DNA of 64,000 bases, taken from contig JAENZQ010000016.1 in assembly GCA_016841185.1 (NCBI GenBank), forward strand, positions 1-64,000. Direction: 5' to 3'. The notes under the pieces were generated by a model, which did not search any database, had not been told where the DNA came from, and saw only the letters and a program-made list of their open reading frames with translations. Below, in pieces: positions 41,762-46,488 of the stretch (within the stretch, counting starts at the first letter, position 1; each line of letters begins with the position of its first letter). A program made the translations under genes and the position numbers. Source of the stretch: Anaerovorax odorimutans. GTDB lineage: Bacteria; Bacillota; Clostridia; Peptostreptococcales; JAAYPU01.

Positions 41762-43087
41762 TTAGTATATTTTCTCATTTTCTGAAGTAATGAGCGCTTT
41801 AATTAATTTTGTCTTTTTTGGTTTATCTTTGCATATTTTGTATGCATCCCGAACCATTTCCAAGACCTCTTTAATCCCATTATCTTCATTTCCATGAACT
41901 TCTGCAATAATCTCTCCTTTTGTAACATTATCACCAATTTTTTTGTGCAATAAAATACCTGCAGATAAGTCAATATCGTCTTCCTTTTTCTGTCTTCCGG
42001 CACCTAAAATCATAGCTGCTCTTCCGATACTATCCGCACGGATCTTTTTTATATATCCCTCATTCTTTGCCGAAATTTCTACTTTATGATCGGCCTGAGG
42101 CAGAATATTTACATCCTCAATAATTCTTTTATTTCCACCCTGGGCTTCAACAAATTCAACAAATTTTTCCAATGCTTTATAATTCTTAAGATTCTTTTGA
42201 ACCATACAAATTCCTTCATTATATGTATTGGATTTCCCGCCCAAAAAAACCATATATGCAGCCAGCTTAAGAGAAAGATCCGTTATGTCATCCGGGCCTT
42301 CACCTTTTAATACATCTATGGCTTCTTTTACTTCTATTGCATTTCCTACTGCCCTCCCAAGGGGCTGATCCATGTCTGTAATAAAAGCCGCTGTCTTCTT
42401 CCCTGCCGAATGACCAATCTCCACCATATAATCCGCCAACCGGCGAGCACTGTCAAAGTCCTTCATAAACGCACCACTTCCGCATTTAACATCTAAAACA
42501 ATGGCATCACTTCCGGAAGCCAGTTTTTTACTCATTATGCTTCCGGATATGAGTCCCATGTTGTCTATGGTGGCCGTAACATCTCTTAATGCGTATAATT
42601 TTTTATCTGCAGGTGCTATATGTGCCGTCTGGCCTATCACAGCAATACCTATAGTATTGACAGTATCTATGAACTCCTGTTGTTTCATGACAGTTTTAAA
42701 ACCCGGAATCGCTTCAAGCTTATCTATCGTACCACCGGTAAAACCTAATCCTCTTCCCGACATTTTTGCAATAGGTACACCACATGAAGCCGCAAGGGGA
42801 CCCACAATCAAAGTCGTTTTATCCCCTACTCCGCCTGTACTGTGCTTGTCCACTTTTATACCTGCAATAGAAGTCAAGTCTACATTGTCTCCGGAATTTC
42901 TCATGGCATCTGTTAATATGAAAGTTTCTTTTTTTGTCAGCCCTTTGAAGTATATAGCCATTAAAAGAGCTGCTGCTTGATAATCCGGAATTTCATTCCT
43001 GGTATATCCATCAATAAAAAATTCGATTTCTTTCTTTGTCAGTTCTTTACCTTCTCTTTTTTTTAAAATAATATCATACATTGTCAT
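41762..43087 (-). CDS. pdp: Pyrimidine-nucleoside phosphorylase
   Basis: Phosphorolyses thymidine, uridine and deoxyuridine to base plus (deoxy)ribose 1-phosphate (441 residues). KHSTGGVGDKTTLIVGPLAA near 80-99 and SGRGLGFTGGTIDKLEAIPG near 109-128 are the family signature. The three-domain layout ends in a barrel-like domain. It is coupled to deoB, whose product interconverts the sugar phosphate. Start choice is between 43087 and 43081. Confidence 0.95.
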   Translation of the reverse strand: MTMYDIILKKREGKELTKKEIEFFIDGYTRNEIPDYQAAALLMAIYFKGLTKKETFILTDAMRNSGDNVDLTSIAGIKVDKHSTGGVGDKTTLIVGPLAASCGVPIAKMSGRGLGFTGGTIDKLEAIPGFKTVMKQQEFIDTVNTIGIAVIGQTAHIAPADKKLYALRDVTATIDNMGLISGSIMSKKLASGSDAIVLDVKCGSGAFMKDFDSARRLADYMVEIGHSAGKKTAAFITDMDQPLGRAVGNAIEVKEAIDVLKGEGPDDITDLSLKLAAYMVFLGGKSNTYNEGICMVQKNLKNYKALEKFVEFVEAQGGNKRIIEDVNILPQADHKVEISAKNEGYIKKIRADSIGRAAMILGAGRQKKEDDIDLSAGILLHKKIGDNVTKGEIIAEVHGNEDNGIKEVLEMVRDAYKICKDKPKKTKLIKALITSENEKIY

Positions 43088-43092
43088 TTTTC

Positions 43093-44262
43093 TCACCGCT
43101 TTCTAATTCTATTCAGGAAGCTTGTTCCGTATTCAGGCATATCTGCCTGTAAAATATCAGCGGTAGTTGCCCCGATATCTGCAAAAGAACTTAGAGTGCC
43201 CAGATTGACACCTTCGCTGACTTTTTCTCCATAAATAAGAACAGGAACATATTCTCTGGTATGATCCGTCCCTTCATGAGTTGGATCATTTCCATGATCC
43301 GCAGTGATAATCAATACATCATCTTCTTTTAAGTTATCGATGATCTCCGGCAATCTCTTATCGAATTCTTCAATAGCTTTTCCATACCCGGGAGCATTTC
43401 TCCTGTGCCCGTATTTTGCATCAAAATCAACAAGATTCGTAAATATCAGCCCCTCAAAGTTTTCTTTTAAAGCTGTAATGGTTTTATCCACTCCATCCAT
43501 ATTATTTTCCGTATGTACCGCTTTTGTGATTCCTTGGCCGTTAAAAATATCTTCAATTTTTCCGATAGCATATACCTCTTTATTTGTTTTTTTGATTGAA
43601 TCCAAAACAGTTTCGGTGTATGGGGCTATTGAAAAATCCCTTCGGTTCGCAGTTCTGGTGTAATACCCATTTTCTCCGACAAAAGGACGTGCAATTACTC
43701 TGGCTACTTGCAGATCACCTGTAAGCATTTCTCTTGCCGTCATGCAAATACGATATAGTTCTTCCAATGGGACAATCTGCTCATGACATGCTATTTGAAA
43801 AACGCTGTCTGCAGATGTATATACAATAATATCTCCCGTCTTTTCATGCAAAGGCCCTAACTTTTTTATAATTTCCGTTCCCGAAGCAGGATAATTCCCC
43901 ATTGTCTTTCTTCCAATTTTCTTTTCAAAGGATGTAATAAATTCCTTTGGGAACCCCTTTGGGAAAGTTTTAAACGGCTTATCAATATACAGCCCCATTA
44001 TTTCCCAATGTCCGGTGGTTGTATCCTTTCCTGCAGACATTTCCATTAATCGTCCAAAAGATGCTTTTGGATAGTTATTTTTTTGTATATGTACACCTTC
44101 AATATTTCCGATCCCTAATCCTGAAAGGTTTGGAATATCCACACCATCACAGGCTTCAACGATATGTCCTAAAGTATCGGCTCCCGAATCTCCGTATTTC
44201 TCTGCATCCGGCAAAGCACCAATACCCATACTGTCCATAACAATAATAATCACTCTTTTCAC
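43093..44262 (-). CDS. deoB: Phosphopentomutase
   Basis: Alkaline-phosphatase-fold enzyme (389 residues) converting (deoxy)ribose 1-phosphate to 5-phosphate. Metal ligands show in VIIIVMDSMGIGALPDAEKYGDSGADTLGH (by parts), the TTGHWEIMG motif near 88-96 and ITADHGNDPTHEGTDHTREY near 322-341. Upstream of pdp with six bases between stop and start; together they salvage pyrimidine nucleosides. Confidence 0.97.
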   Translation of the reverse strand: MKRVIIIVMDSMGIGALPDAEKYGDSGADTLGHIVEACDGVDIPNLSGLGIGNIEGVHIQKNNYPKASFGRLMEMSAGKDTTTGHWEIMGLYIDKPFKTFPKGFPKEFITSFEKKIGRKTMGNYPASGTEIIKKLGPLHEKTGDIIVYTSADSVFQIACHEQIVPLEELYRICMTAREMLTGDLQVARVIARPFVGENGYYTRTANRRDFSIAPYTETVLDSIKKTNKEVYAIGKIEDIFNGQGITKAVHTENNMDGVDKTITALKENFEGLIFTNLVDFDAKYGHRRNAPGYGKAIEEFDKRLPEIIDNLKEDDVLIITADHGNDPTHEGTDHTREYVPVLIYGEKVSEGVNLGTLSSFADIGATTADILQADMPEYGTSFLNRIRKR

Positions 44263-44651: not shown

Positions 44652-45536
44652 TTAGGCTCTTGGGTGTGCTTTGTCATAAACTTCTTTTATCCTGTTTTTT
44701 ATGATCTGTGAGTATATTTGAGTCGTAGAAATATCCGAATGCCCCAACAATTCCTGTACAGATTTTAGATCAGCACCGTTTTGGACCAAATGAACCGCAA
44801 AAGAATGACGTAAAACCTGTGGAGTTATTGTTTTGTTTATTTTTGCTTTTTTTGTATACGCATTTATTATCTTCCACAACCCCTGGCGACTTAGTTTCTC
44901 ACCATTATAATTTACAAAAAGAGCCTTTTCATTAATGTTGCTTATCAACTTATCACGAGTTTCACTAATATATTCCGATAGAGCTTGTCTCGAAATACGC
45001 CCCAATGGAATAATCCTTGCCTGTCCATGTTCTCCGTTACAAGTCAAAAAACCCATCTTCAGGTTAACATCATCAACAGTTAAATCCACTAACTCAGACA
45101 CACGTATACCGGTTGCATAAAGTACTTCTAATATAGCTTTATCTCTTATTCCTTTGATTGATTGATCCGGTTGTTTTAAGAGCAACTCAACTTCTTCCAA
45201 TGACAAGTATTCCGGTATTTTTTTTTGAATTTTTGGGGGTTCAACGCTTGAAGTCGGATCACTTTTTAAAACTCCCCTGAGTATAAGATACCTGCAAAAA
45301 GAACGAATAGATGCCAGATTTCTCGATATGGTAGAAGTCGATCTTCCCTGTCCCTTCAATTGCAAAATATATGAAATGATATAAGTTTTATTGATTTCGC
45401 CCAGATCACAATGATATTTGTTGTTCAAATAAGTTAATAAATTTTTTACATCTCTTCTGTAAGCATTCAATGAATTCTGAGAAAGCTCCTTTTCCGATAT
45501 CAAATAATCCAAATATTGATTTATTATCTCTTCCAT
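44652..45536 (-). CDS. xerD: XerD-like tyrosine recombinase with two substituted catalytic positions
   Basis: 294 residues with the XerC/D layout: N-terminal SAM-like core-binding domain (residues 1-90) and C-terminal catalytic domain. Two arginines (ATGIRVSEL, VLRHSF), the second histidine (LLGHSDISTTQIY) and the tyrosine are present. The residue aligned with the catalytic Lys of GKGNKER is Glu (GEHGQAR), and the first His of the HxxR motif is Gln (TPQVLRHSF). Normal XerD resolves chromosome dimers at dif. Neighbours spoIIM, deoB and pdp match the usual clostridial xerD locus, so this is not a phage integrase. Start ATG follows CAGGAGAG. Confidence 0.9.
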   Translation of the reverse strand: MEEIINQYLDYLISEKELSQNSLNAYRRDVKNLLTYLNNKYHCDLGEINKTYIISYILQLKGQGRSTSTISRNLASIRSFCRYLILRGVLKSDPTSSVEPPKIQKKIPEYLSLEEVELLLKQPDQSIKGIRDKAILEVLYATGIRVSELVDLTVDDVNLKMGFLTCNGEHGQARIIPLGRISRQALSEYISETRDKLISNINEKALFVNYNGEKLSRQGLWKIINAYTKKAKINKTITPQVLRHSFAVHLVQNGADLKSVQELLGHSDISTTQIYSQIIKNRIKEVYDKAHPRA

Positions 45537-45593: not shown

Positions 45594-45706
45594 GATAATA
45601 GATAAGAAATAAGCGGTAAAAATTATGATAGATTCTTAGTACTCTAAGAATCTATATCTCGAAACAAGGATTTTTCACAAAATCTTTATCTGTTATCTCT
45701 AAATTA
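45594..45706. repeat. Palindrome between inverted GATAAYA-type heptamers
   Basis: Left: AAGATAATAGATAAGAAATAAG. Centre: ATAGATTCTTAG/CTAAGAATCTAT (45628-45639, 45644-45655). Right: TTTATCTGTTATCTC, the complement of the left units. The whole stretch is therefore an imperfect inverted repeat, in the gap between xerD and spoIIM. Confidence 0.75.
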
Positions 45707-46330
45707 TATGGCAACGATCATTTTTATCAAAATCGGGCAAATATAAGATTCAATGATACATCCTATGATGAAAACACCTGAAATTACAGTGAAAATAGAA
45801 ACATAGGGCAAAAAGAACTGCATATAGCCTTTATTCTGTCCGTGTCCCTTTTTAAAAAGAATACTCCATGAAAACCCGATTGAAACAGCAGTTGCAATGA
45901 CATAAGCAGGTAAAAAAATTATGTTTTGGGGTAATAAAGAGAAAATTGCCAAAAGTAAACCCTTTACCTTCATTTCTTCCATAAAGAAAGCTGCTGCAAA
46001 TCCAATGGTAATTCCTCTGAAAGTCAATGCCCCAATTGCAACAGGAAAGCCAATAACAGCTGATCCAGACAAGAATATGATAAGGAGGAGTTTAAAATTG
46101 TTAATCAGAGATTTTAAGAATATTTCACTTTTGGGGAGACTATCCAAATGCATAACATTAAAGTATGTATTAACAAAAGTGAGCAATTCGCTTTTCTGAG
46201 ATATTTCCATCATTTTTTCGGTAAAAGCACCGATAGATATTCCCAAAACTAAAAAAAACAAAGCAAACCACAAGTTCAGACCATTTCTTCCTAAATATCC
46301 TGAGAATATATCTTTTCCTTTTTTCCTCAC
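45704..46330 (-). CDS. spoIIM: Stage II sporulation protein M
   Basis: Membrane protein of the SpoIIDMP septal-dissolution and engulfment complex (208 residues, about five helices). FFLVLGISIGAFTEKMM near 20-36, FPVAIGALTFRGITIGFAAAFFMEEM and the C-terminal hydrophobic stretches fit SpoIIM. I chose GTG at 46330, which has GAAGGGTGATAACC before it; longer frames would lack a ribosome site. In studied species the gene is sigma-E dependent; no clear sigma E promoter was seen here. Confidence 0.92.
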   Translation of the reverse strand: MRKKGKDIFSGYLGRNGLNLWFALFFLVLGISIGAFTEKMMEISQKSELLTFVNTYFNVMHLDSLPKSEIFLKSLINNFKLLLIIFLSGSAVIGFPVAIGALTFRGITIGFAAAFFMEEMKVKGLLLAIFSLLPQNIIFLPAYVIATAVSIGFSWSILFKKGHGQNKGYMQFFLPYVSIFTVISGVFIIGCIIESYICPILIKMIVAI

Positions 46331-46488
46331 GGTTATCACCCTTCCCAACCTTGTACTACAACCATAACGGGCGCCTATCAAGCGCCCTGCAACTGAATAC
46401 TACGCATTAAAAACCTCTTTAGTAAAAAATATGCTTGTCATGACCTATTTATTACTATTTGTCCAAGAAAAATTATGAATGGTTATAA

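Follow-up and report, generated by a model that had tools for sequence, protein, structure and literature searches.

The window (the whole stretch of DNA analysed, 64,000 nucleotides) carries an xerD orthologue (ripX) with an eroded active site at positions 44652–45536 on the minus strand. Its reading frame (294 aa), which a first-pass annotation had called intact, is indeed open from the ATG at 45536 to the stop codon ending at 44652 and is preceded by AGGAGAG, which resembles a ribosome-binding site; the plus strand contains many stops across the same interval. Upstream of xerD lies a spoIIM-like ORF (45704–46381), the product of which was named from the translation by eye. A phosphopentomutase (deoB/drm)-like ORF (43093–44262) downstream of xerD and a pyrimidine-nucleoside phosphorylase (pdp)-like ORF (41762–43096) were likewise read by eye, and all three are encoded on the minus strand.

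The encoded protein scored 348 bits against the TIGR02225 equivalog model (cut-off 329.6), carries HPRA at its C-terminal end as XerD and RipX do, and groups with XerD in a tree of 30 proteins. An AlphaFold (AF2) model (pLDDT 87.2) was compared with known structures by Foldseek, and Xer structures ranked first (1a0p: E 5.9e-16, rmsd 12.7). The predicted fold is XerD-like; given the low whole-chain TM (0.49), the match bears on family membership only and not on active-site geometry. The family score, the spoIIM–xerD–deoB–pdp locus, the C-terminal motif, and the conserved R247 and Tyr are shared with XerD/RipX of E. coli and B. subtilis, whereas the replacement of Lys172 and His244 and the lack of a XerC partner set the protein apart, and its relatives even lose R148, H270, and Tyr279. 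The gene is taken to be the vertically inherited XerD (RipX) of its order, probably the Peptostreptococcales; this agrees with the initial description, a chromosomal gene in the locus usual for xerD. The name of the order is drawn from named records that carry the recombinase or the site described below (Acetoanaerobium noterae and plasmids of Paraclostridium, Clostridioides, and Terrisporobacter).

Active site of the window protein and of its relatives

Active-site columns were set by phmmer alignment of the window XerD to E. coli XerD (1a0p), the residue numbering of which we take to be the 1a0p chain index plus 2. The alignment pairs GEHGQAR with GKGNKER and TPQVLRHSF with SPHVLRHAF, so that the catalytic set reads R-E-Q-R-H-Y instead of R-K-H-R-[H/W]-Y. 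Glu169 (codon GAA, 45030–45032, minus strand) stands in the XerD K172 column and Gln240 (codon CAG, 44817–44819, minus strand) at the HxxR histidine (XerD H244), as first annotated. The residues that had been described as present were all found, namely Arg145 (XerD R148; 45102–45104), Arg243 (XerD R247; 44808–44810), His266 (XerD H270; 44739–44741), and Tyr275 (the XerD Y279 nucleophile; 44712–44714), again on the minus strand. The second hairpin Lys (KxR; KER in E. coli XerD) is also replaced, by Gln172 (45021–45023, minus strand), which leaves the hairpin without any Lys.

The window genome is a draft of 88 contigs, which could point to an error in sequencing or assembly; misassignment of a mobile integrase as XerD was considered alongside. 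Glu in the K172 column and Gln in the H244 column occur in all three genomes of the family, which refutes error for both; only the Gln at the second hairpin Lys is confined to the window genome, the other two family members retaining Lys. The score above the TIGR02225 cut-off and the grouping with XerD in the tree speak against a mobile integrase, and this explanation is very improbable as a whole. The substitutions are real and common to relatives, and the altered activity originally proposed is judged probable. The K172A/Q variants of E. coli XerC are catalytically inactive according to the part of PMC4865107 consulted. Loss of catalysis in the window XerD is fairly likely: the protein, with Glu/Gln/Gln for Lys/Lys/His and R, R, H, and Y kept, is probably a catalytically crippled intermediate, and the four retained residues mean that it may have residual activity.

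XerD orthologues, defined as matches at E ≤ 1e-40, were found in 114 of the 148 genomes of the order, and all 114 were aligned (weaker second Xer-like matches in G128 and G068 were left out). The R148 column contains R in 84, K in 29, and L in one, so that Arg is lost in 30. Lys occupies the K172 column in only seven orthologues and is replaced in 107, with 13 residue types in the column, a reading that depends on gap placement within a loop of variable length; the second hairpin Lys column has K in 66. The H244 column (H 66, Q 26, T 12, S 6, N 2, F 1, R 1) has lost His in 48 cases and the H270 column (H 85, N 22, F 4, Y 3) in 29. R247 is invariant (114/114), and the Y279 column contains Y in 109 and F in five, one of which carries an internal stop. 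The strict pattern R-K-H-R-[H/W]-Y is thereby present in three of the 114 proteins; if Lys is accepted anywhere in the hairpin, together with R, H, R, H/W, and Y, the number rises to 49. None of the 19 members of family f4 retains R148, H244, or H270. The changes in the window XerD are one point in a process that has eroded the active site across the order and in places reaches the nucleophilic Tyr. With 13 residue types at K172 and seven at H244, the suggestion that the clade uses a single alternative residue is not supported.

The comparison was extended to 22 outgroup genomes, which were reached through named loci and in which the hexad was read by eye from the alignment; the distant integrases L002 and L005 were dropped from this and later alignments. 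At least two Xer-like matches were found in all nine outgroup genomes with a full XerD hexad and in five of the 13 with an eroded XerD (two-sided Fisher p = 0.006, relatedness uncorrected), so partner loss and loss of catalytic residues appear to go together more widely. The remaining eight of the 13 have one Xer-like match only, and most of them, not all, belong to Lachnospiraceae or Eubacterium. XerD rows from Lachnospiraceae and Eubacterium mostly lack the K172 Lys and have a shortened hairpin, with R, H, R, H, and Y kept, and several of these genomes have a single Xer-like gene. Lys loss alone therefore need not mean inactivity, as it is common in Lachnospiraceae rows in which R, H, R, H, and Y are intact.

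Selection was estimated as dN/dS (Nei–Gojobori) for 14 hand-picked pairs, of which three were saturated and were dropped; the 11 estimable pairs gave values of 0.035–0.183, the lowest belonging to a pair in which Tyr is replaced by Phe (G065/G041). XerD is under purifying selection. Among the 294 XerD columns ranked by conservation, R148 is 96th, K172 282nd, H244 144th, H270 95th, and Tyr279 36th, and invariant columns include R72, R131, D132, E148, R174, R217, Q218, K222, S245, and H249. R217, Q218, and K222 lie on or at the start of a helix predicted in the AlphaFold model (217–231), which presumably contacts DNA in this family. Low dN/dS, together with non-catalytic residues outranking catalytic ones, indicates that the protein has been retained even though much of its chemistry has gone. 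Because genomes and pairs are related, p-values in this study overstate independence.

These values also bear on the idea that XerD is in late decay under relaxed selection and has no retained function. The absence of a match at E ≤ 1e-40 from 34 of the 148 genomes, internal stops in two orthologues (G133 and G111), and long branches in the tree are in keeping with decay; 112 of the 114 orthologues are nevertheless free of internal stops, the estimable dN/dS values are low throughout, and non-catalytic residues are fully conserved over many families, which makes this reading improbable. The 34 genomes without XerD do imply that whatever role it retains is not essential.

XerD of these clostridia could alternatively still be active by means of other residues (the second hairpin Lys or Arg, Gln for His), either alone or with the miaA-linked recombinase described below on its new site. 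Retention of Tyr in 109 orthologues, above expectation were catalysis wholly dispensable, counts against a full pseudo-recombinase and in favour of activity, as do the invariant R247, the 49 proteins that combine a hairpin Lys with a complete R-H-R-[H/W]-Y, and the Lachnospiraceae rows, most of which lose the first Lys only. This must be set against the lack of any fixed substitute residue, the hairpin of the window protein, which contains no Lys, and the five Tyr-to-Phe replacements, including the pair with the lowest dN/dS. On balance, continued activity is unlikely, and the distribution of the recombinase and its site (see below) tells further against it.

A second, miaA-linked recombinase as a probable replacement

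The suggested dependence on a partner recombinase, taken as XerC, is not supported: none of the 148 order genomes has a match above the XerC family cut-off, which is strict, as the control genomes showed a match in five of 14 and exceeded the cut-off in two of 14. The window genome contains a single full XerD-like gene. A canonical Firmicutes dif was not found in this genome with a consensus sequence; the best match had two mismatches, and the 25 matches obtained were of the same order as the 14 for the backward pattern. The proposed search for a second XerC/XerD and a dif site thus produced neither XerC nor canonical dif; the genome does have an intact, order-specific recombinase with a dif-like site at the terminus.

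Five genes of the phage-integrase family are present in the window genome. One of them (P0002; 377 aa, XerS-like; G000:C18:1789-2922) has miaA and a short ORF resembling hfq (read by eye) on its upstream side. Relatives occur in 135 of the 148 order genomes, mostly at 50–88% identity, and the six catalytic residues were intact in all 66 that were read out of these 135. In a sample of 341 genomes of the class, the recombinase was found at E ≤ 1e-60 in 16 of 17 order genomes and in none of the 324 others.

The best NCBIfam match of this protein is XerS, at 142.6 bits versus a cut-off of 267, which places it outside the equivalog, and in the tree of 30 proteins, some of which have long branches, it forms a clade of its own (100/100) apart from XerS and XerD. 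It resembles the XerS/difSL system of streptococci and lactococci, as far as that is described in the part of PMC5357621 consulted, in being a single enzyme of about 360–380 aa with a gene-linked site in a terminus position and in its best NCBIfam match; it differs in missing the XerS cut-off, in its separate clade, and in its identity of only about 27–30% to plasmid-borne XerS. XerH/difH of Helicobacter and Campylobacter, judged from partial sources, is likewise a single recombinase with a site near its gene, but it belongs to a different phylum; XerH is not among the 30 proteins of the tree.

The 34-bp dif-like site

K-mers common to the regions upstream of the second recombinase gene led to a 34-bp palindrome with 15-bp arms, AACTATTCCTAAAAT-GTAT-ATTTTGGGAATAGTT, which in the window genome is intergenic (G000:C18:12151-12184) and about 9 kb from the recombinase gene. 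A palindrome of 32–34 bp was identical in seven of 30 loci, always upstream and in gene orientation. At three mismatches or fewer, the site was found in 93 of the 148 order genomes (single in 91 of these), with none for the reversed-pattern control. In family f10 the arms are unchanged but flank a different centre, and this variant lies near the recombinase gene in 13 of 16 stretches, a pattern that fits a dif-type site. A generic form of the site was found in 126 of 148 genomes (reversed control 0). Either form was present in 128 genomes, comprising 126 of the 135 recombinase carriers and two of the 13 non-carriers (Fisher p = 9e-10, overstated because the genomes are related); the other nine carriers have no recognisable site. 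The sequence is unlike the difSL half-sites as quoted in the available part of PMC5357621.

The position of the site was measured from dnaA in 23 complete or near-complete genomes picked by hand, some with rounded chromosome lengths, and was 0.405–0.50 of the chromosome in 22 of them; the exception, G041 (two contigs), was left out of the median. In the 2.63-Mb record of Acetoanaerobium noterae, the site is about 0.1 kb from the recombinase, the identity of which is 61.7%. The second recombinase has a dif-like site linked to its gene at the terminus. Counting against the proposed module are the nine carriers that lack a recognisable site, the position in G041, and the 9-kb distance between site and gene in the window genome.

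The idea that XerD cannot do without the second recombinase, and the recombinase not without XerD, was rejected, 26 of the 148 genomes having the recombinase without XerD. The site, a near-perfect palindrome, is present in 22 of these 26, so no partner seems to be needed, and the same persistence argues against an XerD that is still active on the new site.

Small plasmids of Paraclostridium, Clostridioides, and Terrisporobacter also carry the site, as does the C. difficile phage phiCDIF1296T (82–88% identity); partial matches in Staphylococcus plasmid and Pseudomonas phage records are likely due to chance. The 34-bp string was not found in the literature searched. Of the publications found on XerD, XerS, or dimer resolution in clostridia or C. 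difficile, judged by title and the start of the abstract, none describes such a system, nor do the parts consulted of a tyrosine-recombinase classification (PMC8138268) and a Xer review (PMC5357621) mention one. The findings point to an apparently undescribed module for chromosome dimer resolution, copies of the site of which are carried by plasmids or phages from Clostridioides, Paraclostridium, and Terrisporobacter.

Probable replacement of XerCD/dif and a proposed role for the retained XerD

Computation directly shows the erosion of XerD and its purifying selection, the absence of XerC above the cut-off, and the conservation of a second recombinase with a site linked to it at the terminus. 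The preferred reading, with a probability of roughly two in three, is that a single-recombinase/dif module replaced XerCD/dif and that XerD has been retained for binding DNA, its catalysis slight or absent. That the second recombinase took over from XerCD is the firmest part and very probable; it would resolve dimers at the 34-bp site and most likely acts alone on this palindrome at the terminus. On this view, XerC would have disappeared from the order, with another tyrosine recombinase taking charge of chromosome dimer resolution, and XerD, freed from strand exchange, could then have shed its catalytic residues. The hairpin Lys would have been lost most widely, followed by His244 and, in some families, by Arg148, His270, and Tyr279. 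The fold and the likely DNA-contact residues would have been kept by selection on a role that requires DNA binding and not cleavage.

The unloading of SMC is the most likely of such roles by analogy. SMC unloading by B. subtilis XerD was reportedly described by Karaboja in 2021. The orthologous locus is kept in the order, and a terminus role of the B. subtilis protein has been described apart from dimer resolution; such unloading may need no catalysis. According to the portions consulted of PMC12322038, PMC9733580, PMC8357415, and PMC13342612, B. subtilis XerD unloads SMC near the terminus. It is possible, at slightly less than even odds, that the retained XerD of the order has this function. 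A bolder version is more tentative still: the whole order would have separated the two functions of XerD, with dimers resolved by a new single-recombinase/dif system that is neither XerS nor XerH, XerD reduced to a pseudo-recombinase whose only use is to bind DNA at the terminus and unload SMC, and the new dif borne by phages and plasmids of the order so as to exploit the replacement enzyme. XerD proteins that lose catalytic residues one by one under selection would separate recombination from a structural role, and the eroded series would offer ready-made tools for asking how XerD unloads SMC.

Three nearly complete genomes of family f9, genus g25 (G032, G040, and G049), have neither XerD nor the second recombinase at the thresholds used; each carries a XerC-like gene (337–344 aa, 219–224 bits), which is perhaps another replacement. 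The window genome has a second dif-like site, two mismatches away from the generic form (G000:C86:14061-14090, corresponding to L325:9962-9991). Its neighbours are phage-like genes, read as terminase and portal, which suggests a prophage that carries the resolution site of its host. An extra copy of the palindrome was present on a small plasmid-like contig of 6984 bp (G074:C12).
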